Below the pieces are notes generated by a model. The model did not search any database. It was not told the origin of the DNA and was given only the letters and a program-made list of their open reading frames with translations. Below are positions 8,686 through 36,437 of a stretch of DNA of 50,664 bases, piece by piece. Position 1 is the first letter of the stretch; the number at the start of each line of letters is the position of its first letter. This stretch comes from a virus: positions 138,826 through 189,489 of the IMG/VR virus record IMGVR_UViG_3300025162_000019, one strand, 5' to 3'. A program made the position numbers and the translations under genes.

Positions 8686-9654
8686 TTATTTAATTTTGCT
8701 ATATACCTTATACCAATCTACAAATTCCTTTATACCATCTTCTATAGAGAACTTAGGTTCATACCCTAACTCTCTTTTAACCATTGTTAAATCTGATAAT
8801 GATTCAACTATCTCACCTTTAGGTAGATCAACATATTCTCTTTTTGCTTCAATACCAGTAGTTTTTTCTATTATATCAAGTAGTTCTTTTAGCTGAACCA
8901 TTTCACCACGACCCAAGTTATATAGTTTATAATCTATTGGCCTTTCAAATGCTAACATGAAACCATTAATAATGTCATCTATATAAGTAAAGTCCCTATA
9001 CATATTTCCATTATTATTTATTACCACTTTAGTACCATTATACACTGCTTTAACCCATTTGTAAACTACCATATCTGGACGGCCCCAAGGCCCATAAACT
9101 GTAAAAAACCTTAGCCCTGTTGTTTTTATACCGAAATTTTTATTAAAAGCGTATGCTTCCATTTCATTAAATTTCTTTGTTGCGGCGTATGTATTCAATG
9201 GGCGTTCCGTACTATCTGTTTCCTTATAAGGCGGCACTAAATCACCATAAACACTACTACTTGACGCATATACAAAGTTCTTTACATTATAATTTTTAGC
9301 AGCATTGATTATATTTGTAAACCCATAGCAGTTAGTTAAGATATATGGTTCAGGATTTGTTAAAGAATACTGAACCCCGGCATATGCTGCTAAGTTGCAT
9401 ACATAGTTGGGCTTTTCTTTCTTAAAAATCCAATCTACATTATCTCTTGATGCTATATCCATTTCATAGTTCTTAAATGATGGATTTTTTACAATCTGTT
9501 TAATCCTTTCTCTCTTTAGCATTGCATCATAATATGTATTAAAGTTATCAACACCAACAACTTTTACACCTAACTTTAATAGTTTCCTACATAAATGAAA
9601 CCCTATAAAACCAGCTGAACCTGTTACTAAAACTTTATCATCCTTTTCAAACAT
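8686..9654 (-). CDS. NAD-dependent nucleotide-sugar epimerase (UDP-glucuronate 4-epimerase type)
   Basis: Extended short-chain dehydrogenase that epimerises a nucleotide sugar using bound NAD. The NAD-binding GxxGxxG reads TGSAGFIG (residues 11-18). The active site is SSSSVYG (131-137) with Tyr156 and Lys160 of YAATK. The stretch TGLRFFTVYGPWGRPDM and the following RDFTYIDDI are typical of the CapI/UDP-glucuronate 4-epimerase branch. Length 322 aa is normal. It lies between gp47 and the small genes leading to gp46, and its ATG comes 2 bases after the gp47 stop with GGAGAA as ribosome site. It probably supplies a sugar for glycan modification; the possible glycosyltransferase at 1041-1907 may be a partner, which is inference. 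Confidence 0.88.
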   Translation of the reverse strand: MFEKDDKVLVTGSAGFIGFHLCRKLLKLGVKVVGVDNFNTYYDAMLKRERIKQIVKNPSFKNYEMDIASRDNVDWIFKKEKPNYVCNLAAYAGVQYSLTNPEPYILTNCYGFTNIINAAKNYNVKNFVYASSSSVYGDLVPPYKETDSTERPLNTYAATKKFNEMEAYAFNKNFGIKTTGLRFFTVYGPWGRPDMVVYKWVKAVYNGTKVVINNNGNMYRDFTYIDDIINGFMLAFERPIDYKLYNLGRGEMVQLKELLDIIEKTTGIEAKREYVDLPKGEIVESLSDLTMVKRELGYEPKFSIEDGIKEFVDWYKVYSKIK

Positions 9655-12258: not shown

Positions 12259-15180
12259 TTATCTCATATCTTTCTTAACACGATACCATATTGTAAATGT
12301 AACATTATCAGGTTTAAATATTAAATCGCAATAAGTGTAAAATACTATATTATTATTTATATCAAACAGACCAATTTCATAAATGTTCATATCTCTATCA
12401 TCATCGACATTTATTTCAAAATAGAAAAATTCATTATCACTCTTTCTTCTTACTATAGGATACTGCCCATATGATTTTTCCATACCATGATTACTTTCTG
12501 GATTCCATTTTCTACCAGATGTACCATATCCAACTTCAGCATAAGTCACATTATTAATAATACCTGTCATATCTGTTGGAGAAATACCTATCTTTCGTAT
12601 AATAGCCGTTCCTGTTATTGAAGAGCCAAAAACAACAGTACATGAATTTGCATTATCAATAGTAAAAGTTTTTGGATAAACTATATAACCATCTTCATCA
12701 TAAAACTGTGCTTGTATAGCATTAGCATTCAGTCCATGATATATATTCCATGTAGTTGAAGCACTATCTCTTACATATCGTGACAAATCGGTATCAAATC
12801 TTGTTGCTGTATATGCAAAACCAGAATCGGAATATGCTAAATTTACTAAATATTCGGTTTGACTATCAGCAACTATTGATAAGGGTAAGAACTTGAATCT
12901 ATCAACATCATCTGTCTGAACAATATTCCATTTCTCAGCATCGCCATCAAAATTTAATCCATGTGTAACTGTCCATTGAATAGCATCAGATGCTTGTTCT
13001 AATGTAAATTCCGATACAGTTAAATAAGCAAATCCAGCAGTAGGTGTCGCAAATGTTATTTTAATTCTGTTTGCATCAATATTCTCAATAGATTTAGGTT
13101 CAAACATAACTTGCCCTAAAGTAAAACATTGTGTAATAATATTAGTTGAATTTAAATCATGTTTTATAATCCATGCTAACGAATTTGAGAATGACGCATA
13201 TACTAAGTTACCTTCTATACTACTCAATATAGGCTGATAACATTTAGAATACATTGCAGCTGCATAGTTTCCTGTATATAGAGGTATATTTTTTCCTGTA
13301 AAGTCTGTAATAGGTGCAATCAATTCATAATAATGTGAAAATCTACTAACTGGCCTAAACTTTTCAAAGTTACTTATAAGAATAGTTATTAAATCTTCAT
13401 TGATAATAAAATTTGTACCTAATGGCTCTCGGCTCAAATCCATTTCAACTTTATAATGAGGTGATAAGCACAAACCGCCACTTACTTCTTTTGAATATGT
13501 GGGATACTCAATAATCTCAGTATTATCAAAAACTATAGCATTACCAGATGCTTCATAACTAAATGTAATTAATAAACTATTTTTATCTAAGAATGTAATC
13601 TCATCTGGTACTTCAACCATATCATCAACTACAACTTGAACAATGGGATATTTTGTATTTAAATCATGTTCAACAATCCAAGACGATGAGGCTGCTGAGG
13701 TCGAATATGTATATAATTGATTATCAATACCTATTACAGCTGAGCCATCAATAGGATTATCAAAATAAACAGATAAATTATTTATATCATCAAAAATTAT
13801 CCTATTAGGTACGATAGAATAATCAGTACTCGAAACTTGCGCCATAGGATATTTGACACCTAAATTATGATTTATATGCCAAGTTGCTAAAGGTGTTCTC
13901 TGATCGAATTGATACCTATATGCGTTATTATCAGTTGTCATTGTAACTACTTTACCTGTTACAGCAGTATCAAAAGTTGCGACTAAATTATTTGAATCTG
14001 TAAAATATATCGAATCAGGTATAATAACCTGTTCATCATTATTTATAAACTGTGTAAAAATAAACTGCTCATTATATCCGTGAGTTACTTTCCATTCGGT
14101 AGAAACATCTTCAAAATATGTTAAAGATACACCAGCATCATAATAATAACCAGCACCAGCGCCTAGTGATGGTGGCAATGTATTATAACTTGGATATGAT
14201 ATATATAAATAATCATCAAAATAATTCAGTGGGGAGCCAGAAACTTCCCAATCATGCCATCTTTCATAAATATTAAGATAATTTAATGTATTATAAGTTA
14301 AAATTTTCCATATAATAAACAAAGAAGTATAAGTTCCCTTTCTCTTTAAGAAGTCAGGCAACTTACTCACATATTCTCTTTGTTCCTTTTCTGTAATTCG
14401 TTCTAATAAATTAACATCATACATATTAGAAATATAATATAGATAATCAAAATCAACTTCTGCTGGATCGGATAATGTCCATATATTCTTTAATAAGTTA
14501 TAGTTCTTACTGAAAACCCTATCAAAATATAGCTCTAAAAATCTAGCCATTAACATATTATACACATCATACTTATAACCATTTGCTGTGTCTATTACCA
14601 CTTTGGACTTATCACTACCTCTATTATTATAAGGCAAGGCATTAACGACAAAATCCTTAAAAGTATCTATAATAATATCAATTCTATTAGTTGCTGATAT
14701 ATATAACTTGCCAATATAATAGTATAACTTATTTGTATTTAAGTAATCAGTATAATCTGTATTGCTATCAATATAATCATTAAACTGGCGGTCTTTCTTA
14801 AAATAAACTTCACAACCATTATTGTCTATCAAATCTTCAATAGTTAGTTCGCAAAATCTATATGCATCACTCTCGTAGTTGAAACTAAATATATTACCTA
14901 TTGGTGTTCCACTTATAGGTGTTGCTTTTATTCTATAATATGTTCCTTCCACTTTAACATACAACTCAACACCAAAACCATATTTTGCAATGATGCCCGA
15001 CTTAGCACCTCTAAGTGAAACAGAAGAAGGATAATGATAGTTATGAGGTACTATTCTATTTCTTATTATAGTTGATGGTATATTAGTATCTAAACTAGTA
15101 AGATTTTTATGTATATCATTATCTTCATCTGTAAAATAGTTACTTAATATAAAATAAGGTGTATCAGAAAATTTTGCCAT
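12259..15180 (-). CDS. gp7/gpI-like baseplate wedge protein with six W-x-x-x-H repeats, 973 aa
   Basis: The N-terminal third resembles P2 gpI/T4 gp7-type wedge proteins: a core reading LTEKEQ-like ITEKEQREYVSKLPDFLKRK (about residues 260-280) within a helical segment. Position directly after two gp6-like genes fits (gp6)2-gp7 or (gpJ)2-gpI. From about residue 360 to 870 six imperfect repeats of about 65 residues each begin W-x-(I/V)-x-H-x-(L/Y) (WKVTHGY, WHINHNL, WIVEHDL, WIIKHDL, WTVTHGL, WNIYHGL) and end in a small beta motif (F...G.A). The C-terminal approx. 90 residues are a separate beta domain. Repeats likely project outward as fibre attachment or adhesin modules, which is inference. 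Confidence 0.65.
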   Translation of the reverse strand: MAKFSDTPYFILSNYFTDEDNDIHKNLTSLDTNIPSTIIRNRIVPHNYHYPSSVSLRGAKSGIIAKYGFGVELYVKVEGTYYRIKATPISGTPIGNIFSFNYESDAYRFCELTIEDLIDNNGCEVYFKKDRQFNDYIDSNTDYTDYLNTNKLYYYIGKLYISATNRIDIIIDTFKDFVVNALPYNNRGSDKSKVVIDTANGYKYDVYNMLMARFLELYFDRVFSKNYNLLKNIWTLSDPAEVDFDYLYYISNMYDVNLLERITEKEQREYVSKLPDFLKRKGTYTSLFIIWKILTYNTLNYLNIYERWHDWEVSGSPLNYFDDYLYISYPSYNTLPPSLGAGAGYYYDAGVSLTYFEDVSTEWKVTHGYNEQFIFTQFINNDEQVIIPDSIYFTDSNNLVATFDTAVTGKVVTMTTDNNAYRYQFDQRTPLATWHINHNLGVKYPMAQVSSTDYSIVPNRIIFDDINNLSVYFDNPIDGSAVIGIDNQLYTYSTSAASSSWIVEHDLNTKYPIVQVVVDDMVEVPDEITFLDKNSLLITFSYEASGNAIVFDNTEIIEYPTYSKEVSGGLCLSPHYKVEMDLSREPLGTNFIINEDLITILISNFEKFRPVSRFSHYYELIAPITDFTGKNIPLYTGNYAAAMYSKCYQPILSSIEGNLVYASFSNSLAWIIKHDLNSTNIITQCFTLGQVMFEPKSIENIDANRIKITFATPTAGFAYLTVSEFTLEQASDAIQWTVTHGLNFDGDAEKWNIVQTDDVDRFKFLPLSIVADSQTEYLVNLAYSDSGFAYTATRFDTDLSRYVRDSASTTWNIYHGLNANAIQAQFYDEDGYIVYPKTFTIDNANSCTVVFGSSITGTAIIRKIGISPTDMTGIINNVTYAEVGYGTSGRKWNPESNHGMEKSYGQYPIVRRKSDNEFFYFEINVDDDRDMNIYEIGLFDINNNIVFYTYCDLIFKPDNVTFTIWYRVKKDMR

Positions 15181-17936
15181 TATCCTTCCTCTGTAAATGT
15201 GCAGTTATCTATTAGAACTTGCGGAAATTGATTATTACCCAACTCTATATCTCTAAGTTTATTATATCCATTATGAGTTATCTTATCTACAGTATATTTA
15301 GGAAAACCAATAAAGTTTCTTAAAACCATACCAAAACAATCACCTGCCTGAACATCAGTCACACCGTAATCTATGATTTTTACGGGATCAAATATATCAT
15401 CATTACTATTATTACCTAGTTGCCCGTAAGCATTCCAACCCCATGACCAAACAGCACCTTCAGTATCAAGGCCAAAAAAACTAACACTATTACTACAAAC
15501 TGCAACATTTGTAAAACTAACATCCATAACTGTTGCAACCGGACTTAATGTTGGTGGAGCCATAATATCAATATCCATACCCCAAGTATATACATTATCT
15601 TCCGATATACCAATAGAACATCCCAATCCGCAAGCTACATCCTTAAAACTTAAAGTTGATAGAACAGCAACTGGACTTGAACGACTATTTGTAGTACCAT
15701 CGCCTAACTGACCTTTATCATTATAACCCCACGCCCAAAGTGAACCATCTGAACTACGAATACCTATAATATGATCCATGCCAACAGATATTTTACTGAA
15801 TTGTATTCCGCCTAAAATCAAAGATGGTATTGAAGTATCAATATTTGTAAAATTAGCTAGCTGACCATAATTATTAGCACCCCATGCCCAAACTTCTCCA
15901 TTATTATCAAGTCCATATGAAGATGTATAACCAGCTATGACCTGAACCAAACTTGCACTACATGATACTAATACAGGGCTTGAACAACTATTACCACTTG
16001 TATTATTTCCAAACTGTCCATATGTATTATCACCCCACGCCCATAGCGAACTATCTGAACCATTAATACCTAAACTATGCATACCGCCAACAGAAATATC
16101 ACTAAAACTAATATTACCTTTTACAAAAACAGGACTTATTCTATCAATTACAGTACCATCTCCTAATTGGCCAAACATATTGTTACCCCAAGCCCATGCT
16201 GTACCATCCTCTTTTAAACCGATGGAATATACACCGAATGTTGATATTTTAGAAAAATTATCGGTATCAGCTAACAATACTGGTATAGACCTATCAGCCC
16301 AGTTTATATCATTATTGCCTAACTGCTTAGTATTATTCATACCCCATGCCCAAACAGCACCAGTAGTATTAGGTTCATATATAATATTTGCATTTACATC
16401 TCTAAACATTATATACTGAACTCCTTTTATATATGTAAAGTTATCAGTAGGCGAAACTTTACTTGTATCCATTAAATAGTCTATTATATCTGTCAACTTA
16501 ATTGTTTCATTAAAACTTCTATTAACATAGTTAAAATAGTATTCTAACTTATTCTTCACTGCTTCTTCTACTAAAGCAAAAGAATATGTACGTTTAGGCT
16601 TTATACCAATATCAAAAGAAAAATATACAAGATCAGGTACTTCATATTGTTCATAGATACATATAACCTTTCTAGGTTCAAGATACTTAGCTAAATCCGT
16701 TTTATATTCATCAGCATATAAGGTTGGAGTCAAAGAGCCATCAGCATTTGTAGTCTTATTAATCGTAGTAGTTCCCCATGTATCAGGTATAACAGAAATA
16801 TAAACTTTATTATACTCTAAAATTGAGCCAGATGGTGTCACACTTTGCTGGCCCCATGCATTTGCAGCAATAACATTATCCTTCTCTTCAAGAAACTTTA
16901 CATAATCATAAGATGTGACATCTCTAAACTGGTCATACATACTGCCAACAGAGTTTATTTTAATATCAGCAATACTTTCAGGACTTAGGCCACCTGTTGC
17001 GGAACTATGAGTAGTAATAACATAATTAGCATTATTTCCAGAGCCAGTTTCAAGATATGAAGTTTTTGTAGTGTTATAAATAAAATTAATAGGTAACTTA
17101 GTTACCACATTATTAGATACATTACCATTTTCACCCAAAGATTCTAATAAAGTTATAGAAATTGTACTATATGTTTCAGGTAAATTATTAGAACTTGAAA
17201 ACTCTACAACATAGTTTTGATACTTATTATACTTGAACATATAAATATTATCTCTGATACTTAAACCAGATATAGTATCATAGAAATTTTCAACTCTTGC
17301 CCAAGTTACGTCATCTACTTTTACTTCCATACAAGGATATACATTAGTTAAGTCATCATCATAGTCAAACTGTAAATAAGGTAAGTATATTTTATTGTCT
17401 ATCAAATCAATACCTGTAAACGTATATGTATGAACTTTACCTTGCCTTACTGGAACAGAAAAACTAAAAGGTACGGCTGTAACTTGTACTGTAGTTGTTT
17501 CAATAGTAGAAAATCGTATATTATTACCTTCAGAATCTTTAACATTCAAACCAGTATCGGGATTACATTCTATTTCAACCCAAGCAGGAATGGTAAGTGC
17601 ATCATATAAACTAATCCCTGTTGATGCGCCAAGAGTAAATGTTAAATAAGTACTTGAAGATATATAACCTTTTGGATTATAACCCCTAAGTCTTGATAAC
17701 ATATGTGTTGTTTCATATATATCAGATGAACTAAGATATTGGTTTTTTGCAACTTTATTAATATGATACATTGTAAGCATATTAATATAAGAAACCAGTT
17801 CACTTAAAATTGTTATATTGTTTCCTTCTATGTTATAATCCTTATATATTGGATTAGAACTCAATAAATCAAACAATCTCGTTCTCATTGTTTTATAATC
17901 AATATTTAAATAATCAGGTACTAATGTATTTGACAT
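15180..17936 (-). CDS. gp6/gpJ-like baseplate wedge protein A with 7-repeat RCC1 propeller, 918 aa
   Basis: Baseplate J-like protein: N-terminus SNTLVPDYLNIDYKTMRTRL, then DIYETTHMLSRLRGYNPKGY (about 85-104) and a central wedge core to about residue 520. From about 530 to 835 there are seven WAWG-type RCC1 repeats (WAWGMN, WAWGNN, WAWGDN, WAWGAN, WAWGYN, a degenerate YTWGMD, WSWGWN), each followed by G-Q-L-G and a SPV strand. A C-terminal segment (FPKYTVDKITHNGYNKLRDI, then FPQVLIDNCTF) resumes the wedge protein and matches the paralog downstream in coordinates, so the propeller is an insertion. It is a paralog of the 974-aa protein at 17958-20882; T4 has a single gp6. Confidence 0.8.
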   Translation of the reverse strand: MSNTLVPDYLNIDYKTMRTRLFDLLSSNPIYKDYNIEGNNITILSELVSYINMLTMYHINKVAKNQYLSSSDIYETTHMLSRLRGYNPKGYISSSTYLTFTLGASTGISLYDALTIPAWVEIECNPDTGLNVKDSEGNNIRFSTIETTTVQVTAVPFSFSVPVRQGKVHTYTFTGIDLIDNKIYLPYLQFDYDDDLTNVYPCMEVKVDDVTWARVENFYDTISGLSIRDNIYMFKYNKYQNYVVEFSSSNNLPETYSTISITLLESLGENGNVSNNVVTKLPINFIYNTTKTSYLETGSGNNANYVITTHSSATGGLSPESIADIKINSVGSMYDQFRDVTSYDYVKFLEEKDNVIAANAWGQQSVTPSGSILEYNKVYISVIPDTWGTTTINKTTNADGSLTPTLYADEYKTDLAKYLEPRKVICIYEQYEVPDLVYFSFDIGIKPKRTYSFALVEEAVKNKLEYYFNYVNRSFNETIKLTDIIDYLMDTSKVSPTDNFTYIKGVQYIMFRDVNANIIYEPNTTGAVWAWGMNNTKQLGNNDINWADRSIPVLLADTDNFSKISTFGVYSIGLKEDGTAWAWGNNMFGQLGDGTVIDRISPVFVKGNISFSDISVGGMHSLGINGSDSSLWAWGDNTYGQFGNNTSGNSCSSPVLVSCSASLVQVIAGYTSSYGLDNNGEVWAWGANNYGQLANFTNIDTSIPSLILGGIQFSKISVGMDHIIGIRSSDGSLWAWGYNDKGQLGDGTTNSRSSPVAVLSTLSFKDVACGLGCSIGISEDNVYTWGMDIDIMAPPTLSPVATVMDVSFTNVAVCSNSVSFFGLDTEGAVWSWGWNAYGQLGNNSNDDIFDPVKIIDYGVTDVQAGDCFGMVLRNFIGFPKYTVDKITHNGYNKLRDIELGNNQFPQVLIDNCTFTEEG

Positions 17937-17957
17937 AGTTATCTTATTTCCTCTATA

Positions 17958-20882
17958 TTATTCTTCTTCTATAAATGTGCAATAATCAATTAAAATATTT
18001 GGAAACTGACTTTTATCTAAAGCTATATCTCTAAGCTTGTTGTTTCCGGTATAAGTAGATTCATTAACAGTATATTTGGGAAACTCGGTTACGGTATCCT
18101 TTAGAGCTGCTACAAAATTAAATCCTATAGTAAGATTATTAACACCAGTAAAACCAGCTATACCTACCGGACTTTGATATGATATAATACTATTATTACC
18201 TAACTGGCCATTTGTATTATTACCCCATGCCCACAAAGAAGTATCAGAACCCCGAATACCCATTGTTGTATAAAAGTTATTCATTTTTATATCCTTAAAA
18301 CTTATACCACCTTGAACAGAAACAGGGCTTGAATAATTCGTAGCATTACCAGTACCTAAGTTGCCTTGAGGATTATAGCCCCATGACCAAGCAGAGCCAT
18401 CTAAACCATTTATAGCAAAACAACTTGCACCATCAGTTATAAACTTTGTATAACTACGATTTCCTATTACTGAAACAGGATTTGATTGACTGCCTATAGT
18501 CCCATTACCTAACTGGCCATAATTATTAGCACCCCAAGTCCATAAATTCCCTGTTTCATTTTCAATACCGCCAATAGAATTCAACTGACTAAATTGTATT
18601 CCTCCAGCTACAGAAATAGGGCTTGAATAGTTATCAGTAGTATTATTTCCTAACTGGCCAAATGTATTATCGCCCCATGCCCAAGCAGTTAAAGTGAGAA
18701 GATTCAAACCATATACATAGTTATTATCTACAACTATCTGCTTATAACTTATGCCGCCAAGAACTGAAACTGGCCTTGATTTATCTATTGTTGTGCCATC
18801 ACCTAATTGCCCATAAGTATTCAATCCCCATGACCATGCTTGATTACTCTTAGACAAACCAATAACAAAATTATTACCATTAATATATAATTTTTTATAT
18901 TTATTACCGCCAAGAACTGAGGTAGGACTTGACCTATCATTATAATCACCAACACCTAATTGTCCATTTGTATTATATCCCCACGCCCAAGCAGTATCAT
19001 CAGACATACGAATGCCTATGGCAGTTTTACCATCACAAAAAATATCACTAAAAATAATATTCCCTATGACAGAAACAGGGCTTACTTTGTTAGTAATAGT
19101 CCCATCACCTAGCTGCCCTTTATCATTTTGGCCCCATGACCATAATGTACCATCTTCTTTTAATCCATAAATGGAATTACTGTTTGATACAATCTTTGTA
19201 AAGCTCAAATTATTATGTATAACAACTGGCGAATGAACTTCTGCCCAATTAGAATCATTATTACCTAACTGCCCATATGTATTATCACCCCAAGTCCAAG
19301 CCATATTATTTGAATCAGGCTCAGATATTGTAACACTATCTATATCTATATCTCTAACTAAAAGATATTGTATTCCCTTTACATTAGAAAATGTTTCAGT
19401 TAAAGATATATTATTTGTATTCAATATATACTCAATTATATCAGTAATCTTTATCGTTTCTTGAAAACTACGATTATACTTTGAAAAATAATAATTCAAC
19501 TTACTTTTAACATCAGCCTCAACTAAACTGAAAGAATATGATGGCTTTACCTTTATGCCTATTTTGATTATAAAATTTAATATATCAGGTAAAACATAAG
19601 TATCATATGTTGAAATTATTTTTCTTGTTGCTAAATATTCTGTTAGTTTTCTCTTGTAATCTTCTGAATATATAATAGGTATAACTTCATGACCTGATTC
19701 ATCTTGTGAAATACTTATAGTTCCTGTACCCCATTCATCAGGTATAACAGTAATAAAAATTTTGTTATAATCTCCAGTATTACCTAATGGCGATTCTTCC
19801 ATCTCACCCCAAACACTTGCAGCAACAACATCAGTTCTTTGCTCAAGATGCTTAATATAATCAATAGAAGTAACATTTCTAAACTGTGAATGAAATGTGC
19901 CACTTGAATTATCTTTCATATCCTTTATAAGTTCAGGGTCAACACCACCAGTTGCGGCGGTATGGGTAATAGTTACATAATCAGAATCAATAGTATTGCC
20001 ATTAGTAAGATATGCTAATGTTGTTATATTATAAATAAACTCCGTATTTACAGGATTTATTATAGTATTTTCTTCAACATTTCCTTTCTTACCATATGAT
20101 TCTAATACCTTTACAATAATTTTATCTGTGGGTTTAGGAACACCACTTGATACTAAAAATTCAATAGAATATGTTTGATACTTGTCAAACTTAAACATAT
20201 AAATATTACTTTCATTTAATAGACCTGTAACTTCATTATAAAAATTATTCACTCTAACCCAAATATCATTTCCAACTTGAACTTCAATAGATGGCAGATC
20301 ATCATTCAAATCATTATCATAATCAAAGTTTAATGAAGGTAAATATAACTTATTATCTGATAGGTCTAATCCTGTATAGCTATATGTTTTAACTTCACCT
20401 TGCTTTACTGGAACTTGAAATGCGAATGGAAAAGAATCTTCTGTAATTGAAACAGTTGTAGTAGTTGTAGTGGTAAACTTTACTAGGTTCCCATCTTCGT
20501 TTTTCTCTGTAGATTCAATTTCTGTCCAAGCAGGAATAGTAAGTGTATCATATACAACTGCACCCGCTGATGGCCCAACACTTATTGTTAATGTTGTATT
20601 AGAAGATACATAACCTTTTGGCTCATATCCTTTAAGACTTGATAACATATGTGTTGTTTCATATATATCAGACGTATCAATATAATGATTTTTTACAACC
20701 TTATTAATATAAAAAGATGATATAGAACCAGCATATGAAACTAGTTCATCCAAAATAGCTAAATTATTACCATCTTTCAAATAATCCTTAAACACCATAT
20801 CATTACTAAGAACATTTAAAAAATCACTTTTAATTATATCAAAAGTCTTATCAAAATATTCAGGTACTAAATCATTTGACAT
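17958..20882 (-). CDS. gp6/gpJ-like baseplate wedge protein B with 8-repeat RCC1 propeller, 974 aa
   Basis: Paralog of the 918-aa protein with the same order of parts. The N-terminal wedge region starts SNDLVPEYFDKTFD and holds DIYETTHMLSSLKGYEPKGY. The core extends to about residue 525. Eight RCC1 repeats follow (WTWGDN, WSWGQN, WAWGYN, WSWGLN, WAWGDN, WTWGAN, WSWGYN, WAWGNN) between about 529 and 890. The C-terminal block FPKYTVNESTYTGNNKLRDI and ILIDYCTF is shared. It follows the gp25-like gene by 3 bases, as in T4-type gene orders. RCC1 propellers usually bind proteins or nucleic acids; here a structural or receptor-facing role at the baseplate rim is inferred. Confidence 0.8.
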   Translation of the reverse strand: MSNDLVPEYFDKTFDIIKSDFLNVLSNDMVFKDYLKDGNNLAILDELVSYAGSISSFYINKVVKNHYIDTSDIYETTHMLSSLKGYEPKGYVSSNTTLTISVGPSAGAVVYDTLTIPAWTEIESTEKNEDGNLVKFTTTTTTTVSITEDSFPFAFQVPVKQGEVKTYSYTGLDLSDNKLYLPSLNFDYDNDLNDDLPSIEVQVGNDIWVRVNNFYNEVTGLLNESNIYMFKFDKYQTYSIEFLVSSGVPKPTDKIIVKVLESYGKKGNVEENTIINPVNTEFIYNITTLAYLTNGNTIDSDYVTITHTAATGGVDPELIKDMKDNSSGTFHSQFRNVTSIDYIKHLEQRTDVVAASVWGEMEESPLGNTGDYNKIFITVIPDEWGTGTISISQDESGHEVIPIIYSEDYKRKLTEYLATRKIISTYDTYVLPDILNFIIKIGIKVKPSYSFSLVEADVKSKLNYYFSKYNRSFQETIKITDIIEYILNTNNISLTETFSNVKGIQYLLVRDIDIDSVTISEPDSNNMAWTWGDNTYGQLGNNDSNWAEVHSPVVIHNNLSFTKIVSNSNSIYGLKEDGTLWSWGQNDKGQLGDGTITNKVSPVSVIGNIIFSDIFCDGKTAIGIRMSDDTAWAWGYNTNGQLGVGDYNDRSSPTSVLGGNKYKKLYINGNNFVIGLSKSNQAWSWGLNTYGQLGDGTTIDKSRPVSVLGGISYKQIVVDNNYVYGLNLLTLTAWAWGDNTFGQLGNNTTDNYSSPISVAGGIQFSQLNSIGGIENETGNLWTWGANNYGQLGNGTIGSQSNPVSVIGNRSYTKFITDGASCFAINGLDGSAWSWGYNPQGNLGTGNATNYSSPVSVQGGISFKDIKMNNFYTTMGIRGSDTSLWAWGNNTNGQLGNNSIISYQSPVGIAGFTGVNNLTIGFNFVAALKDTVTEFPKYTVNESTYTGNNKLRDIALDKSQFPNILIDYCTFIEEE

Positions 20883-20885
20883 ATA

Positions 20886-21281
20886 TTATCCTCTTTTAAG
20901 AATTGTGGTAACAGAATATATATTACTGGAACTTATAGAACCTACGATAGAAAAATTAACGGTTACTTCATATTGGTTATTATCATAATTTGATTGAACA
21001 TTCAAATTTTCTATTTTAATTCTTTTTTCCCATGTTTGAATTGATGATAAAAATTCAGAACCAATTCTTCTAGCTGTTATATCGTCCATTGGCTCAAATA
21101 ATAACTTATAAAAATTACTACCAAACTCAGGTAACATTCTTCTGCTACCCATCATTGTTGTCATTATATTTTTTAATGAGTTTCTAATGGAATCTATATC
21201 AGTATTTAACTCAACATCACCATCGTTTTGTCTGAATAGATCGCCATTAAAATCTGAATACATATAATCTTTAGTTGCCAT
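20886..21281 (-). CDS. 25: gp25-like baseplate wedge protein
   Basis: Short wedge protein that helps polymerise the sheath from the baseplate. It has the family's SRRMLPEFGSNFYKLLFEP block (about residues 46-64), the EPR-like core appearing as FEPMDD, and the following GSEFLSSIQTWEKRI helix. Length 131 aa matches T4 gp25 (132 aa). It stands directly before the two gp6-like genes in transcription order. A late promoter box lies 18 bases upstream of its ATG. Confidence 0.85.
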   Translation of the reverse strand: MATKDYMYSDFNGDLFRQNDGDVELNTDIDSIRNSLKNIMTTMMGSRRMLPEFGSNFYKLLFEPMDDITARRIGSEFLSSIQTWEKRIKIENLNVQSNYDNNQYEVTVNFSIVGSISSSNIYSVTTILKRG

Positions 21282-21999: not shown

Positions 22000-22827
22000 T
22001 TAAATTATTGATACAACTATACCATCTTTTACAGTAACATTTTTATTCCCAGCATCAAAACTACCATTAGCACCATTTCCAACTGAAACACTTTTAGTAG
22101 TCGTTACATCACCAACACATATTATATTCTGCGAAGTTAAAGTAATATTACCAATAGCTTTTATTGATACATCACCACCTGTTGTAATATCCCAATCACC
22201 ACCAATTTGAGCTGTTTTATTACCAGCAATACCGTCTGTACTATTTGCAATACAACTAAGTAAAACATCACCATCTTTATCTATTTCTATATAAGTTCCT
22301 GAACAATGAAATAATGTTATTTTTTCATTACCGGGAGTTGAATCAAATTCTATATAATGCCCACTATGAACAGATAAAATAACACTATGAGGATATACAC
22401 CATATCCAGCATTCCAATCTGGTTGACCTACTTTATCAGGATATACACCATCTGGATCACTAAATCCTTTACTTGTGTCTGGTGATTCAGTTGGTATGGC
22501 TGGAGCGGATGCAAAATATCTAGGTTGCATTATATTACCAGCCTCAAAGAACACAAATACATGAGAACCCTGTAATGGTACACCAAACCAACCATACTTA
22601 GAAATAGAACCCTCAATCAAACTTAATGCTGGTTGAGCCCAAGGCAATTCAGCTGTTGGTATACCTTCAGTTGCTGATTTAGTTTTCATTTCAGTATGTA
22701 TACCAAAAATACGAACTTTACATCGTCCTGCTTTTAAGGGATCAACATTATCTTCAACTACACCACGATATATTGAATTTAATTTATCCTGTGGTAACTT
22801 AACATCTTTAAATGTATTTTTATCCAT
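22000..22827 (-). CDS. gp5/gpV-like baseplate spike protein (OB fold plus beta-helix, no lysozyme)
   Basis: Central spike protein. Residues about 15-115 form the OB-type domain: YRGVVEDNVDPLKAGRCKVR, then ELPWAQPALS and WFGVPLQGSHVFVFFEAGN. The following GVYPHSVILSVHSGHYIEFD and repeated short beta motifs (IGGDWDIT, DVSIKAIGNITLTS) form the beta-helical needle of VgrG/gpV proteins. Unlike T4 gp5 there is no lysozyme domain between them; the cell-wall hydrolase domain is instead on the 828-aa protein at 27493-29979. Overlaps the hub gene stop by one base. Confidence 0.85.
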   Translation of the reverse strand: MDKNTFKDVKLPQDKLNSIYRGVVEDNVDPLKAGRCKVRIFGIHTEMKTKSATEGIPTAELPWAQPALSLIEGSISKYGWFGVPLQGSHVFVFFEAGNIMQPRYFASAPAIPTESPDTSKGFSDPDGVYPDKVGQPDWNAGYGVYPHSVILSVHSGHYIEFDSTPGNEKITLFHCSGTYIEIDKDGDVLLSCIANSTDGIAGNKTAQIGGDWDITTGGDVSIKAIGNITLTSQNIICVGDVTTTKSVSVGNGANGSFDAGNKNVTVKDGIVVSII

Positions 22828-24116
22828 TATCTTTTTCCTAATATAGAATCAACTTTAATATTTGTATTTGTAGATTTTGACAATGTTTTATCATTGCTTT
22901 CCGTATAAGCATTTTTCAATAGAACTATTTTTTGCTTAAATACAGGGTCTTGTTTTCCACTAAAATGATTTGTAACTGATTTTATTAAAAATTTACCATC
23001 TAATGTGCTATTAAGAACTTGATCCCTCATTTCAGTACTTGGCCATTTTATATTCGTAAGTAAGCCAGGGTATCTTCTTTCATGTCCTTTAACTGTTATT
23101 GTTGCTGATAATTGTTTAGAGTATCTTTTTATAAAATCACATTCATGAATATTTCTAATTACATCAGCATCATCTTCACCTGACATAACAAAATTATCAT
23201 TTGGTGAACTTATTGTATCAGGAAATAAAGTATTTTTACCTAGCATAGTAAATTTAGAAATAACATCTGTATAAGTAAATGATTCATCTATTAATTTTTT
23301 CTTTAAAAAATCATAACCTAAAACTCTTGATCCTTTTAATTGCTTTATTGCTGAATTATCTATACTATCCATCTTCCAATCTAAAATTGTATTATATGTT
23401 TTTGTTTTATCGCCATCTTTATTAAAAAATTCATAATAAATTATTTTATTATTTTCATCCTTTTCAACATCGGTACTTTGAAATAATTTATTTATTGTAA
23501 CTAAATTCAGTCCTCTTGTATTAAAATAATATAAATATCCAGCCGTTTTGGATTCTGAGCCTGATCCTCTTTCAACTAACCAACGTATTGCTTCAGATGG
23601 CGTCCAATAGGGCATAAAAAAATATGATAATTTTTCTCTCGTATTCTCAAATATTTTAAAAGTTTCAATACTTAACATATTTTTAGTTATATCTTTAATA
23701 ATATCCGATATTCTTTTATCTGTCCATGATATATTATATCTTTTATCCATTAGATTAGAATAATTAGTATCGACAAGAAATAAATCTATTTGACTCATTG
23801 AATTAGACTTTATTTTATCCATAGGATTCATGCTATCGACATTAAAAATATTAAATATAATAGTTACTACTTCTAACTCACCATATTGAATAACAATATT
23901 TTCATGCCCTGTAAATGGTAAAAATTCTGCTAACCCTCCTTTATCATAAAAAGATATTTTACCAACTAAACAAAATGAAAATATATCTTCTATAAAGTAT
24001 ATTTCAGATATATCTTCAAGATTTATATGGAAAACTCTTCCGTTTGAAAGAAGCTTAACATTAAATACTCCTTTATCTTCTTTTATATTTGCATTTACAT
24101 CATCAGTATTACTCAT
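22827..24116 (-). CDS. gp27/gpD-like baseplate hub protein, 429 aa
   Basis: Hub protein that forms the ring on which the spike sits. The evidence is position (directly upstream of the spike and downstream of the gp53-like gene), length and fold pattern: an N-terminal tube-like beta barrel (residues about 15-110), then TPSEAIRWLVERGSGSESKTAGYLYYFNTRG (in two blocks about 170-200), which is typical of hub proteins, and a second barrel with GHERRYPGLLTNIKWP near residue 345. The family call is moderately secure. Confidence 0.75.
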   Translation of the reverse strand: MSNTDDVNANIKEDKGVFNVKLLSNGRVFHINLEDISEIYFIEDIFSFCLVGKISFYDKGGLAEFLPFTGHENIVIQYGELEVVTIIFNIFNVDSMNPMDKIKSNSMSQIDLFLVDTNYSNLMDKRYNISWTDKRISDIIKDITKNMLSIETFKIFENTREKLSYFFMPYWTPSEAIRWLVERGSGSESKTAGYLYYFNTRGLNLVTINKLFQSTDVEKDENNKIIYYEFFNKDGDKTKTYNTILDWKMDSIDNSAIKQLKGSRVLGYDFLKKKLIDESFTYTDVISKFTMLGKNTLFPDTISSPNDNFVMSGEDDADVIRNIHECDFIKRYSKQLSATITVKGHERRYPGLLTNIKWPSTEMRDQVLNSTLDGKFLIKSVTNHFSGKQDPVFKQKIVLLKNAYTESNDKTLSKSTNTNIKVDSILGKR

Positions 24117-24493
24117 TATAAATCCGCCATATCCCTCATTTCTCTCATTAAATAAGATATATAATAATTTCTCAATATTTTTATATTTTGACCATCTTCT
24201 AATTCTTCAAATGGATTAATAACATTATTGATCAAGCATACTACCCACCACAAATTTATATTATCGTGTACTTTATCAGCTATATTTTCCCAAAAATCTT
24301 TATTATCAATTTCATAGGTGTCATAAAAAACAATATCATTTTTTACAGAATCATTAATAGAATATGATCTAAAAATATTTAAAAATTTTGTACCATCATC
24401 ATCTAAAATATTAAACATTCTTAAAAACGATGAATTTAATAATGTATGATCTGTTAAATCAAAAAAATTATCAGTTGCTTTATTTGTTGACAT
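24116..24493 (-). CDS. 53: gp53-like baseplate wedge protein, 125 aa
   Basis: The central phrase HDNINLWWVVCLINNVINPF (about residues 74-93), followed by a gap and GQNIKILRNYY, is the signature of the T4 gp53 family, whose members read similarly around a Trp-rich core and then carry a LysM-like tail. The 125 aa are shorter than T4 gp53 (196 aa), so the C-terminal extension is absent. Start and stop overlap or abut neighbours in the baseplate operon, with AGGAGA before the ATG. Confidence 0.7.
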   Translation of the reverse strand: MSTNKATDNFFDLTDHTLLNSSFLRMFNILDDDGTKFLNIFRSYSINDSVKNDIVFYDTYEIDNKDFWENIADKVHDNINLWWVVCLINNVINPFEELEDGQNIKILRNYYISYLMREMRDMADL

Positions 24494-25392: not shown

Positions 25393-27480
25393 TTAGCTAT
25401 TAATCAATGCAAAAGGCATTGGCATTGAAATAGGTATATCATGCTGTGGTTGAGAACTTTCATCTATAGTTGTAGATGCTTGTAAAACTGCATTACTTGT
25501 ATTTATATTATTATTTGTATTTTCCGAAACCATTTTTCCAAACTCATCTACACTCTTTTTATCCTTTTCATTTTCAACTTTAGCCTTTTCATCTTCAGCT
25601 TTAATAATATTATTTGATGACTCCTTTATCGGAGAATTTAGCATTTCATTTTTTGTTACTGCTAAACCACCGACACTAATATCAGCCGTTTGTAAAGTCT
25701 GTGATAATTTATTTGATATATTGTTTGCTGATGGTAATATTGATTGAGTACTAGCAGGTGTAGATGTAGATGCTGACTTTCCTATTGATGATGTACTAGC
25801 AGATGCAGATGTAGATGCTGACTTTCCTATTGATGATGTACTAGCAGGTGTAGATGTAGATGCTGACTTTCCTATTGATGATGTACTAGCAGGTGTAGAT
25901 GTAGATGCCGTAAATCCCCTAGATGCTCCGCCACCACCAGACATCCCACTACCTACTACTGGTGCAGTTACTGTACCGGATACTTTAGCTTTTTGTTCAT
26001 CCTTAACTTTTTGCTCATCTTGCTGTTTTTTTGTTGGTAAGCCAAACCATCCCCTAGCCCAATCAGGAATAAATCCAATCATTTTTTCAAAAAGCCAATT
26101 AAAACCATCACCTATCATATTACTAAGACCTGTAAATGGCTTCATCCAATTTATATTAGTAGCCCAGTTAGTTAAATCCATCCAGCTTTCAGAAACCATT
26201 TGTCCAAACATCATCATAGCTGTAGCGACATCTTTAGTACTCACCATTCCAAATGTAATACCACTAATAGCACCAGCAATAGCACTACCAATTTTTGATA
26301 ATATACCATCACCACCAAAAATATTATTTACTTCTTTATCATTCCATCCACTAAAAGCCTTATAAAGTATAAAACCTAAATATAGAAATGCTAAAACAGT
26401 AGGATTTTTCATAAGACTAAAAATAAGTTTTATTCCAGAACCTAACATACTAAAAATAGGGCCTATTAAACCACCTATAAATGAAAATAGTCCAGAACTC
26501 ATACCTTTTAATTTACTCAAAAGACCTTTCTTTTCGCCACCTTCTCTTTCATCTGCTAATTTATTTACTTTTACATATGCTAAAAATGCCGTAGCAATAC
26601 TCTTTATCTTTCCCGCTAAATTATCTTTTGTTTTTTCTATATCAATTGTTGGTTCTATAGTTTTTGCACTCCACCAACCTTGCTGTCCAGAAATATTAGG
26701 AAGTAAACTTTTTGTTGCTCCGCCACTTAAATGATCATATAAATCCTTAAATATTTCAGTTTCAATATTAACTGCTTTTGTTGTTGCAGATTCTTCTATT
26801 TTAGGTTCTTTTAATTTGTCTCTTTTAAACATACTACCAAAAGTTCTAAATCCATTCCATAATGATTTGAATGAACTTTTAGCTAAAGTATAAATTTTCA
26901 TTATTTCAGGGCCCATTAAATTTTCAAATTCTGATTGTATTATAGTTTTAGCATCATTAAAAGCATCTTTAAAAGATTCTACAGCTTCACCTTCTTTATC
27001 TGCAAATTTTTTCCACATATTAGACCATACACTATTTTGTTTAATTGTAATATCTTTTATACTAGAAGATAGTCCCCTTTTAGTTTTATCTGTAATATAT
27101 TTTTTCCATCCGCCACTTGCAGAATCGGCAATAGTTTTATTATAGCCAGTTAAATAATTTCCAATAACTTTTGCTGTTTTTAATGTATGTTCATTTATAC
27201 TTTTAGAAATTGTATCTTTCCTAAATAATGAAAATATTTTAGAACCAAAACTTCTAAAAGTACCAATATATGATTTTTCTATATAATCATTTGTTTGCTT
27301 TCCAACATCTTCACCAATTTTATCATCAGTCTTTTTAACAGCATCGGCTAATGATTGATTAAAATGTTTAGCAAGAGAATCAACACCTCTTTCAATACTA
27401 TTTAATACTTTAGTCTGATCACCTAAATGCTTATTAATTCTTTTACTTATATCAGCTACATTAGAAAATTCATCTGCCAT
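25393..27480 (-). CDS. tape-measure-like tail protein, 695 aa
   Basis: Long protein with alternating helical and hydrophobic stretches: N-terminal coiled-coil-like region (residues about 1-110), a Gly-rich hydrophobic part (LFSFIGGLIGPIFSMLGSGI and NPTVLAFLYLGFILYKAF, about 330-380; GSAIAGAISGITFGMV about 405-420), then a Ser/Thr/Ala-rich tail with tandem repeats (about 520-580). This layout fits tape-measure proteins (T4 gp29 role), which run inside the tube and cross the host membrane. The neighbouring 828-aa protein has a similar layout plus a lysozyme domain, so which of the two sets tail length is unclear. Confidence 0.6.
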   Translation of the reverse strand: MADEFSNVADISKRINKHLGDQTKVLNSIERGVDSLAKHFNQSLADAVKKTDDKIGEDVGKQTNDYIEKSYIGTFRSFGSKIFSLFRKDTISKSINEHTLKTAKVIGNYLTGYNKTIADSASGGWKKYITDKTKRGLSSSIKDITIKQNSVWSNMWKKFADKEGEAVESFKDAFNDAKTIIQSEFENLMGPEIMKIYTLAKSSFKSLWNGFRTFGSMFKRDKLKEPKIEESATTKAVNIETEIFKDLYDHLSGGATKSLLPNISGQQGWWSAKTIEPTIDIEKTKDNLAGKIKSIATAFLAYVKVNKLADEREGGEKKGLLSKLKGMSSGLFSFIGGLIGPIFSMLGSGIKLIFSLMKNPTVLAFLYLGFILYKAFSGWNDKEVNNIFGGDGILSKIGSAIAGAISGITFGMVSTKDVATAMMMFGQMVSESWMDLTNWATNINWMKPFTGLSNMIGDGFNWLFEKMIGFIPDWARGWFGLPTKKQQDEQKVKDEQKAKVSGTVTAPVVGSGMSGGGGASRGFTASTSTPASTSSIGKSASTSTPASTSSIGKSASTSASASTSSIGKSASTSTPASTQSILPSANNISNKLSQTLQTADISVGGLAVTKNEMLNSPIKESSNNIIKAEDEKAKVENEKDKKSVDEFGKMVSENTNNNINTSNAVLQASTTIDESSQPQHDIPISMPMPFALINS
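25750..25909 (-). repeat. 45-bp tandem repeat, about 3.5 copies, in the 695-aa tail protein
   Basis: Units start at 25750, 25795, 25840 and 25885 (partial). Each encodes TSSIGKSASTSTPAS-like residues with one or two substitutions. Such repeats expand or contract by slippage and here form a flexible Ser/Thr/Ala linker. Confidence 0.9.
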
Positions 27481-31079: not shown

Positions 31080-31805
31080 TTATAATCCACCGGCTATACC
31101 TATACCAGCTTTACGAATTGTTTCTCTAACAGCACCTTGAGGTTGATCATATACATTAAAAAATTGATATGAAAAGGTTACATCGACTGTTGATACCTCA
31201 TTACTTCCATAATCTAATGAAACTTGCCCTATTGATTTTGGCCATGCATAATACAATTTATATACTGAAATAGTATTTCCTGTACTATTTAATAGATATG
31301 CTTCTTGATTTACCATAAGTGAACTAGGTTTTGATTGCATATTTGATATAGGATCACGCATCATTTTCTGCCAATCATGAAACTTTTTAAGTATATAACC
31401 CTCAGAATCCAAATTAAATGTAACAGTCCAATCTTCATATGTTTTATTTCCTGGCACTTTAAATGTATTTCCCATCCAAGTTGAAGTCATATCTTCAAAT
31501 GATGAAGATGGTAAACTAGATGATTTTACATAGAATGGTATATCAGCCATTGACATTTTTTTAGACATTGTACCTATTTGCATACCAGCAACATCTACTC
31601 CTGCTAATGCGCCCGCTTCAGCCCCTTTTATAATAGCATCTGTTGGATTTGTAAAAATACTTCCGCCGCCAGATAATCCAGCCTCTAAACCTGTTAATAA
31701 TGCATTACCAACGCCTGGAAATTGAATATTCATCCAAAACAAATATTGTCTTGAAACATCAGTAAATTTACTCTTATAAGTATTAATATCTATTTGTATA
31801 TTCAT
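31080..31805 (-). CDS. tube-fold protein paralog C, 241 aa
   Basis: T4 gp19-like tube-fold protein: N-terminal IDINTYKSKFTDVSRQYLFW, central WTVTFNLDSEGYILKKFHDW (about 125-144) and C-terminal AWPKSIGQVSLDYGSNEVST followed by VTFSYQFF. Compared with the 177-aa tube protein it has a Gly/Ala-rich insertion (residues about 35-75: LTGLEAGLSGGGSIF). Its start overlaps the stop of paralog B (TAATG). Specialised tube-like proteins often form caps or the tube-baseplate junction. Confidence 0.7.
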   Translation of the reverse strand: MNIQIDINTYKSKFTDVSRQYLFWMNIQFPGVGNALLTGLEAGLSGGGSIFTNPTDAIIKGAEAGALAGVDVAGMQIGTMSKKMSMADIPFYVKSSSLPSSSFEDMTSTWMGNTFKVPGNKTYEDWTVTFNLDSEGYILKKFHDWQKMMRDPISNMQSKPSSLMVNQEAYLLNSTGNTISVYKLYYAWPKSIGQVSLDYGSNEVSTVDVTFSYQFFNVYDQPQGAVRETIRKAGIGIAGGL

Positions 31806-32597: not shown

Positions 32598-33131
32598 TTA
32601 AAATGTAACTCCTATCTCATATGAAGTCTTATCAATAACATGATAAATATATGAAAATGTAACCTGAACCTGTGCAACTTCACTTGCTGAATAATCTAAA
32701 TCAATAGTGCCAATAGACTTAGGCCATGCGCCAACTAATTTATATTTTATAGTTGTATTACCTTCATGGTCAAGTAGTTCTAATACCTGATCTGCCATAT
32801 AAGTGCTTGGTTTATTAGCCTTATTACTTGTTGGATCATGAATTAATCTAGCCCAATCATGAAGCGATTTAATAACATCAGATTCAGCATCAACATTAAA
32901 TGTAACTGTAAAATCAGAATAAGTATATTTTCCAGCAAACTTGAAATCAAATCCTTGCCAATTTGTTGTTATTTCTTCGGTAGTAGTTTCAGGTAAAGTA
33001 GTTGTTCTTACAAGATAAGTAAGTTTATCAACATTTGTAGTAATAGGAAAATTAGGCTTATAATAAAACAAATATTGTTTTGCTCCACCTTGAAATGACG
33101 CTCTATATGAATCTATGTTAAAATTAGGCAT
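32598..33131 (-). CDS. 19: tail tube protein (gp19-like), 177 aa
   Basis: Main tube protein candidate: short and compact like T4 gp19 (163 aa), with FNIDSYRASFQGGAKQYLFY at the start, FTVTFNVDAESDVIKSLHDW (about 85-104), AWPKSIGTIDLDYSASEVAQ and VQVTFSYIYH at the end. It follows the sheath gene as in T4, separated only by a homing endonuclease. Its ribosome site GGAGGG is inside the endonuclease's 3' end, and its ATG overlaps that gene by 8 bases. A strong terminator follows, as expected for a highly expressed gene. Confidence 0.85.
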   Translation of the reverse strand: MPNFNIDSYRASFQGGAKQYLFYYKPNFPITTNVDKLTYLVRTTTLPETTTEEITTNWQGFDFKFAGKYTYSDFTVTFNVDAESDVIKSLHDWARLIHDPTSNKANKPSTYMADQVLELLDHEGNTTIKYKLVGAWPKSIGTIDLDYSASEVAQVQVTFSYIYHVIDKTSYEIGVTF

Positions 33132-34008
33132 TCTTTATACCCTCCAAAATAAAATTGTCTATCTTATTAAAAATATTATATCTATCATTTATTAACTCTT
33201 GCTCTTTAATAACAAGTATATTTATACCTTTCTTAAAACATTGTTTCTTTTTCATTTCATCATGCCATTTTACTTTATCGTTATTATGCCAGTATTCACC
33301 ATTATATTCTATAGCTTTTTTCATTTCAGGTAGCCAAATATCAAGTTCTAAATTTTTACCTGTCCAGTAATTTTTAACTTGCATTCTATCATTTTCTAAA
33401 ATAATACCTGAATATATTGTTTTAACGTATTCAACTATTTTCTTTTCTGGCTTAGAACCACCACTTATATTTTTACACAATGGGCATCTTTGACCCTGTT
33501 GAAAATCATTATATCTCATTAAAAATTGGTGCCCTTTAATACATTGTAATCTTAATTTAGATTTATTAGCTATGTATTCATTAGATAATAATTTATAATC
33601 AAAACTTTCTATGTACTCTTTAATTTCATTTAATATTTTCTTAGGCGTACCAAAACATTCAGGGCACCTTTGACCCGTATAAAAATTACCATATCTCATT
33701 TTAAATAAATGACCTTCAGGGCATTGTAATTTTAATTTAGAAAGAGCATTAATATATTCAGTAGATAATAATTTATAGTCAAAACTTTCAATATATTCTT
33801 TAACCTTTTCTATTGTAAGTTTTTTATTGCCAGCACATTCTGGGCATCTATGACCTTGTTGAAAATCACCATATTTTATATTAAATATATGATTTTCAGA
33901 ACACTGCAATTTTAATTTAGCCCTGCTATCTATATAAACACTATTTAATAACTTATACCCATTATCTTCAACATATTTTTTTACATCGACATAATCCAAC
34001 TTTTTCAT
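33124..34008 (-). CDS. Vsr-like (EDxHD) homing endonuclease with three zinc-ribbon modules, 294 aa
   Basis: Free-standing homing endonuclease between sheath and tube genes. Three modules of about 58 residues (about 1-60, 60-118, 118-178) each have a YxLLS-x-EY helix part, a C-P-E-G-H-like pair and RCPEC closing pair, a zinc-ribbon presumably reading DNA. The catalytic domain (about 180-294) has KPEKKIVEYVKT, NLELDIWLPE, AIEYNGEYWH and KQCFKKGINILVIKE, matching Vsr-type phage endonucleases. It has its own promoter inside a long inverted repeat. Its 3' end carries the tube gene's ribosome site. Confidence 0.85.
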   Translation of the reverse strand: MKKLDYVDVKKYVEDNGYKLLNSVYIDSRAKLKLQCSENHIFNIKYGDFQQGHRCPECAGNKKLTIEKVKEYIESFDYKLLSTEYINALSKLKLQCPEGHLFKMRYGNFYTGQRCPECFGTPKKILNEIKEYIESFDYKLLSNEYIANKSKLRLQCIKGHQFLMRYNDFQQGQRCPLCKNISGGSKPEKKIVEYVKTIYSGIILENDRMQVKNYWTGKNLELDIWLPEMKKAIEYNGEYWHNNDKVKWHDEMKKKQCFKKGINILVIKEQELINDRYNIFNKIDNFILEGIKNA

Positions 34009-35939: not shown

Positions 35940-36437
35940 TTATACAACTTCATATCTATCATAGGAAAATGTTACATCACCTTCTAACTGAGCTTCACCT
36001 TCCCTGTTAGATAATGTTATTTCTCCTAAAGATATTGGCCATATATTCTTAAACATAACCTTTTGTATAGTTTCGTGATAATTATTTGTTATAAGTAAAG
36101 AGGCATCAACCATATACTCATTTACTGGTCTTGTTGGCTTAATAGAATTATCAGTTATATACATTAACCAATCAAATAACAGTTTCCAGTTCTTTAGCTC
36201 TGAGTCCACAATATAATTTATAGTCCATTCACTAAAAGTAATACCGCCTACATGGAAATGCATCTTTTTTCCTTGCCAATCAGAATCAGTTGGCTCCAAT
36301 GCTACAGAAGGAATAATAGTACCATGAACATTCAATATAAATTCTTTATTTTCTCCTATAATTAATTTATGAGGTAATAAAGGAAATATCAATTCATAAT
36401 TACAAGCTGTACCTTTATTTAGATTTATATTATTCAT
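35940..36437 (-). CDS. tube-fold protein paralog A upstream of sheath, 165 aa
   Basis: Aligns along its length with the tube proteins: WTINYIVDSELKNWKLLFDW (about 77-96) corresponds to the tube FTVTFNVD block, and NIWPISLGEITLSNREGEAQ with VTFSYDRYEVV corresponds to the AWPKSIG block. Located between the gp15-like terminator and the sheath, so a tail-completion or tube-terminus role is plausible. The ATG overlaps the gp15 stop region by 8 bases. T4 has no obvious counterpart at this position that I can name. Confidence 0.6.
   Translation of the reverse strand: MNNINLNKGTACNYELIFPLLPHKLIIGENKEFILNVHGTIIPSVALEPTDSDWQGKKMHFHVGGITFSEWTINYIVDSELKNWKLLFDWLMYITDNSIKPTRPVNEYMVDASLLITNNYHETIQKVMFKNIWPISLGEITLSNREGEAQLEGDVTFSYDRYEVV

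Follow-up and report, generated by a model that had tools for sequence, protein, structure and literature searches.

Two adjacent open reading frames of an uncultured virus encode proteins confirmed at the sequence level as gp6-type baseplate wedge proteins with an RCC1 domain inserted near the C-terminus. They were found in a 50,664-nucleotide stretch of an IMG/VR virus record (IMGVR_UViG_3300025162_000019, positions 138,826 to 189,489), referred to here as the window. ORF A and ORF B lie side by side in a T4-type tail module, both on the minus strand (Table 1), and each is one continuous reading frame through core, RCC1 insert and C-terminal block, with no sign of cleavage into a separate RCC1 protein. 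The cores match the PHROG family phrog_219 'baseplate wedge subunit' (residues 11-521 of A, E 1.8e-37; residues 13-499 of B, E 2.3e-33), while the match of both proteins to PF21379 is below the Pfam curated cut-off. Above the curated cut-offs are the matches to the Pfam families WD40_RLD (PF25390; E 5e-61 for A, 1.8e-71 for B) and RCC1 repeat (PF00415; E 4.9e-57 for A, 3.2e-57 for B). The first-pass annotation had described two gp6/gpJ-like proteins with a run of RCC1 repeats between core and C-terminal block, which Pfam, PHROG and the alignment of relatives bear out. With small corrections, the insert stands and covers residues 525-876 in A and 525-932 in B.

Table 1. ORF A, ORF B and neighbouring tail genes in the window (positions count from the first nucleotide of the window).
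Feature	Position	Strand	Length	Basis
ORF A, gp6-type wedge protein with 7-unit RCC1 insertion	15180..17936	-	918 aa	
A gp6 core, residues 1-524	16365..17936	-		phrog_219; 49 % identity to B core
A RCC1 insert, residues 525-876, seven units, unit 6 degenerate	15309..16364	-		Pfam, motif count
A C-terminal gp6 block and stop	15180..15308	-		62 % identity to B block
ORF B, gp6-type baseplate wedge protein with 8-unit RCC1 insertion	17958..20882	-	974 aa	
B gp6 core, residues 1-524	19311..20882	-		phrog_219; family profile that finds Klebsiella-phage and T4 gp6
B RCC1 insert, predicted propeller, residues 525-932, eight units	18087..19310	-		motifs, predicted structure
B C-terminal gp6 block (FPKYTVN...NKLRDIALDKSQFPNILID) and stop	17958..18086	-		aligns with C-terminus of RCC1-less relatives
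gp25-type wedge protein / sheath initiator, directly upstream of B	20886..21281	-		PF04965 5.2e-17, phrog_261
Wedge-position gene after gp6	12259..15180	-	973 aa	homologous N-terminal region follows gp6 in relatives
Baseplate hub (gp5-like) gene, in A/B tail module	22000..22827	-		phrog_430 3.8e-60
Baseplate wedge subunit	24116..24493	-		phrog_232 8.6e-14

The motif positions agree with the seven units, one of them degenerate, and the eight units that had been counted beforehand. WxWG unit starts are located at residues 529, 581, 632, 683, 734, 783 and 830 of A and at residues 529, 581, 632, 683, 734, 781, 832 and 884 of B, and the degenerate unit 6 of A (residue 783) reads YTWG and lacks GQLG. 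The motif [WY]xWG occurs seven times in A and eight times in B, compared to maxima of 3 and 4 in 20,000 shuffles of the respective domain, and is absent from both proteins outside the RCC1 domain. Since the units are uniformly spaced at 47-52 aa, with unit 5 of B cut to 47 aa, and contain no large insertion, the sequences suggest that the Ran-binding beta-wedge and the DNA-binding N-terminal tail of RCC1 proper are absent from A and B. The G+C content of the inserts is 35-36 % versus 28-29 % in the cores, a difference that may reflect only the W/G-rich repeats.

A structure model of B was built from a 34-row alignment and has a mean pLDDT of 80 and a pTM of 0.52. Its RCC1 region (pLDDT 90-97) comprises 32 strands in eight groups of four and is predicted to be a propeller of eight four-stranded blades. 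Structure prediction had been proposed as a check on the initial reading, and for B it yielded this propeller fold rather than a non-propeller one. The best PDB matches of the model are UVR8, the HERC2 RLDs and RCC1, with Z 33-36, about 350 residues aligned and an rmsd of 3.6-4.0; this rmsd and the roughly 50 residues left unaligned would be compatible with a ring of eight blades superposed on rings of seven. Using Foldseek, the gp6 structures 9f4a, 5hx2 and 5iv5 were also matched (E 1e-17 to 8e-16), ranking below the propellers, and the rmsd to gp6 of ~30 A over the full chain goes together with a poorly fixed domain orientation. The VIA listing for the model is filled by propellers, and the missing gp6 rows carry no meaning there. 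Due to the low pTM, the orientation of the propeller on the core is not fixed by the model.

Seven blades are usual in RCC1-like domains, though not obligatory. In two sets of viral RCC1 runs, 7 units dominate (33 and 107 runs), followed by 14, whereas 8-unit runs number only 4, B among them, and 2, in line with the earlier remark that eight would be unusual. Amplification is a known route by which propellers alter their number of blades (PMC9218822), so that eight blades are notable without being unprecedented for this fold. The fusion itself has no counterpart in any relative examined. No second gp6-RCC1 fusion was found in the best-matching loci, comprising ~140 viral and 59 bacterial RCC1 loci, nor among the INPHARED matches from annotated phages, although the scans took best-matching loci and may have overlooked such fusions in more remote lineages of gp6. 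A scan of bacterial genomes with the gp6 core gave no match. The search for RCC1 insertions in other gp6 proteins, suggested together with the statement that no T4-type wedge protein with this domain was known, therefore found none among the loci, relatives and annotated phages covered.

The insertion point can be read from relatives without the domain. With the cores of A and B as queries, IMG/VR scans retrieved relatives of 32-40 % identity on about twenty contigs, and the ~15 closest are RCC1-less gp6 proteins. In the RCC1-less gp6 proteins of L020-L022, L026-L036, L039, L040 and L047, the core is 34-40 % identical. Complete relatives are about 560-585 aa long, with a longer one in L044, and are encoded by a single gp6 per locus. 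These uncultured relatives are like A and B in their core, C-terminal block and MAKFSD-type following gene, but are single-copy and lack RCC1. A family profile built from them hits A and B as two pieces flanking the insert, and also finds the gp6 proteins of a Klebsiella phage (9f4a, E 1.5e-12) and of T4 (E 6.8e-10). At the insertion point, the relatives read 'IYEPNTxGNYPYW...NxLRxIQLGxNQFP' or similar, whereas A reads 'IYEPNTTG[insert]FPKY...NKLRDIELGNNQFP', with an insert of about 350 residues. Since the relatives read straight through this point, the insertion is a whole extra domain, an RCC1 propeller added to a single loop close to the C-terminal end of an otherwise ordinary gp6 of ~570 aa. 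In the RCC1 fold, one blade is assembled from both ends of the array, from its first two and its last two strands. Judging from this fold and from the order of the strands in the model, the propeller ends would lie side by side, allowing insertion into a loop without disrupting the host domain.

Added domains are tolerated by gp6 proteins, as indicated by the relative in L044 (L044:3995-6421). Its 816-aa frame contains a different insertion of 235 aa (residues 400-634) in another loop, for which no significant family or structure match was found. This unrelated insertion and the degenerate unit 6 of A could be expected if one of the RCC1 genes of the phage itself had supplied a propeller by recombination into a tolerant loop, where it was kept without a strong function. 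However, both frames are intact and the propeller sequence is recognisable after the cores have diverged to 49 % identity, which is unlikely without selection, and such a neutral origin is considered very improbable. In another relative (L023:8001-9584, on the same contig as L042), the gp6 gene is split across several frames, due to damage or sequencing error.

The gp6 gene normally occurs once, and A and B are its tandem paralogues, a relationship that the first-pass annotation had not noted. In a tree with fifteen relatives and three reference gp6 proteins, they form one clade with a support of 99/100; the exact placement of this clade is less sure than the sisterhood, since both rows deviate in composition and the branch of B is long. 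Insertion before duplication is the simplest order because A and B share the insertion site. The fused gene would then have duplicated in tandem, after which the two copies would have come to differ in their cores, in the sequence of their blades and in the number of units (7 and 8). Between A and B, identity is 49 % in the core, 62 % at the C-terminus and about 40 % in the RCC1 part. Among the best matches between units, A1-B1 and A2-B2 pair but the middle units do not, which is consistent with blades having been gained or lost afterwards.

In the 189-kb record and an overlapping contig, which may represent an incomplete genome, A and B are the only gp6 matches of the family profile. A third, RCC1-less gp6 gene was considered and is present in neither the record nor the overlapping contig. 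Therefore, at least one of the two proteins should build the wedge. In contractile wedges, each gp7-type subunit is accompanied by two of gp6 type (PMC10457771; PMC3004832), which makes a paired role of A and B plausible. A more specific possibility, which we regard as unlikely, is a gp6 ring of alternating A/B heterodimers, in which six propellers with seven blades and six with eight, differing in specificity, form a crown around the baseplate that recognises the host. If true, this alternation would make the wedge ring itself a host-recognition device. The paired paralogues are also a natural test of a gp6 dimer becoming a heterodimer.

The neighbourhood of A and B contains further features of its own. 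The 973-aa ORF following A is probably the gp7/gpI equivalent; this assignment relies on its position because no database match names the ORF. When the PDB was searched with a profile of this gene, no relative was found. Its repeated segments of ~60 aa match phrog_21918 and are fibre-like. The tail tube family phrog_45 is matched by three separate ORFs (31080-31805, 32598-33131 and 35940-36437). HNH/homing endonuclease genes are located in the tail module (33124-34008) and the head module (49002-50417), with related sequences elsewhere in the genome. Short direct repeats with a 45-base period (25738-25908) lie within a 695-aa ORF (25393-27480) for which no PHROG match was found, and a nucleotide-sugar epimerase-like gene (8686-9654, phrog_540) is located amid recombination and sigma-factor genes.

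Judging from their sequences, at least four proteins of this phage carry RCC1; the separate fibre-like ones among them were likewise not part of the first-pass annotation. The overlapping contig L012 is 100 % identical to the window over the overlap, belongs to the same population and is thus not independent evidence; it reaches 23.5 kb beyond the record end and adds more ORFs of head-module and fibre-like type. On this overlapping contig (IMGVR_UViG_3300022555_000017), a 1013-aa protein (L051:1036-4077) near fibre-like ORFs combines a collagen-like stalk with fourteen RCC1 units, counted from fifteen hits of which one is double. It is adjoined by an ORF of at least 346 aa that consists of near-identical RCC1 units and is cut off by the end of the contig (L051:3-1043). 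The insert of B has its best match in these RCC1 fibre-like proteins of its own phage (313 versus 263 bits for the next phage). For A, the margin is negligible (226 versus 220 bits), and an origin of the propeller within the genome is therefore only a lead.

RCC1 domains are protein-binding scaffolds in many systems, such as RCC1-Ran and BLIP-II. Together with the RCC1 fibre-like proteins beyond the record end and their match to the insert of B, this could mean that the propellers dock other tail proteins of the same phage, such as the RCC1 fibre or other fibres, and not the host. Homology to fibre propellers is, however, not evidence of contact, the margin for A is too small to add to it, and the relatives presumably attach their fibres without RCC1 on gp6, so that docking as the sole function appears distinctly unlikely.

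Elsewhere, RCC1 also occurs in tail contexts. A viral ORF (L107:3992-6463) joins seven RCC1 units to an Mtd_N (major tropism determinant N-terminal) domain, RCC1 is present in proteins annotated as tail fibres in the phages PollyC and Littlefix, and the stand-alone RCC1 genes of S-SRM01 adjoin wedge and fibre genes. RCC1 proteins were detected in virions of W70 and GAP32 by mass spectrometry (PMC11370258, PMC5259590). In phAPEC6 and W70, such proteins were proposed to act in DNA packaging or in ordering DNA in the capsid (PMC7247149, PMC11370258), and PHROG assigns phage RCC1 to 'DNA, RNA and nucleotide metabolism'. For A and B, a domain that condenses or orders phage DNA is hardly credible, since here the domain is fused to a baseplate wedge protein that is encoded among tail genes, which argues against the published DNA-condensing idea for phage RCC1 proteins, and elsewhere the domain is joined to a collagen-like stalk, Mtd_N or tail-fibre modules. 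Based on the wedge fusion and the occurrence of RCC1 with Mtd_N, in tail-fibre proteins and in virion proteins, an exterior tail role is the best reading for RCC1 in this phage.

The conserved gp6 ring holds the contractile baseplate together. The explanation we favour, with about even chances of being right, is that the propellers are an exposed ligand-binding or docking module on the gp6 wedge, acquired by loop insertion and followed by tandem duplication. From the two gp6 copies per wedge and the six wedges of T4, we infer that up to 12 propellers per baseplate could be placed on the wedge, where their surface would bind a host-surface glycan or protein, or dock tail proteins such as the phage's own RCC1 fibre. 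Virion location, A-B pairing and ligand binding are all parts of this explanation that we infer. Exposure to the host is not assured, since the gp6 ring of T4 sits around the hub and not at the fibre rim (PMC3004832).

The insertion in the C-terminal part of gp6 raises the question of whether the propellers instead lie in wedge-wedge contacts, as a clamp. The crystal structure of the C-terminal part of T4 gp6 (residues 334-660) shows a dimer, and this part provides one of the two contacts of the ring (PMC3004832). Here, the RCC1-less relatives fall short of T4 gp6 in length, as do A and B when the insert is disregarded. However, the relatives manage without any added domain, and a ring contact should keep its shape, yet A and B differ in unit number and their RCC1 parts diverge faster than their cores. 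A role in these contacts is therefore rather unlikely. Overall, the initial interpretation is partly supported: the inserted RCC1 domains, the propeller predicted for B, the rarity of eight units and the lack of another such gp6 among the loci covered are borne out, and a receptor- or glycan-binding surface or a reinforced wedge would be putative roles. A propeller on every gp6 copy would be a new way to elaborate a contractile baseplate. RCC1 proteins are common in phages: in one IMG/VR scan, 584 of 600 pattern matches encoded relatives. By its covalent link to a wedge protein, the domain is placed on the tail, and its function becomes directly testable.

The cores of A and B are homologous by profile, and that of B also by predicted fold, to gp6 of T4 (PDB 5IV5, 5HX2) and of the Klebsiella phage (PDB 9F4A), which lack RCC1 and are encoded by one gp6 gene, T4 gp6 having a C-terminal extension of its own. 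The gp25-type neighbour is shared with the gp6 loci of cyanophages and rhizobiophages. With the RLD propellers (UVR8, HERC2 RLDs, RCC1 and the bacterial BLIP-II), A and B have the repeat sequence and, in the model of B, the predicted fold in common, but their units are uniform at about 51 aa and inserted in a phage wedge protein, and B has eight units instead of the usual seven found in A. Stand-alone phage RCC1 proteins (phrog_4219; W70_237-239, GAP32 gp1, phAPEC6 and S-SRM01) belong to the same repeat family, but are separate proteins without a gp6 fusion. A functional parallel is GP075 of Pseudomonas phage K8, a putative wedge protein whose likeness to gp6 comes from remote prediction only. 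Its change is a point mutation and not an added domain, but the resulting variant binds core oligosaccharide (PMC9887876), showing that a baseplate wedge protein can gain receptor binding.
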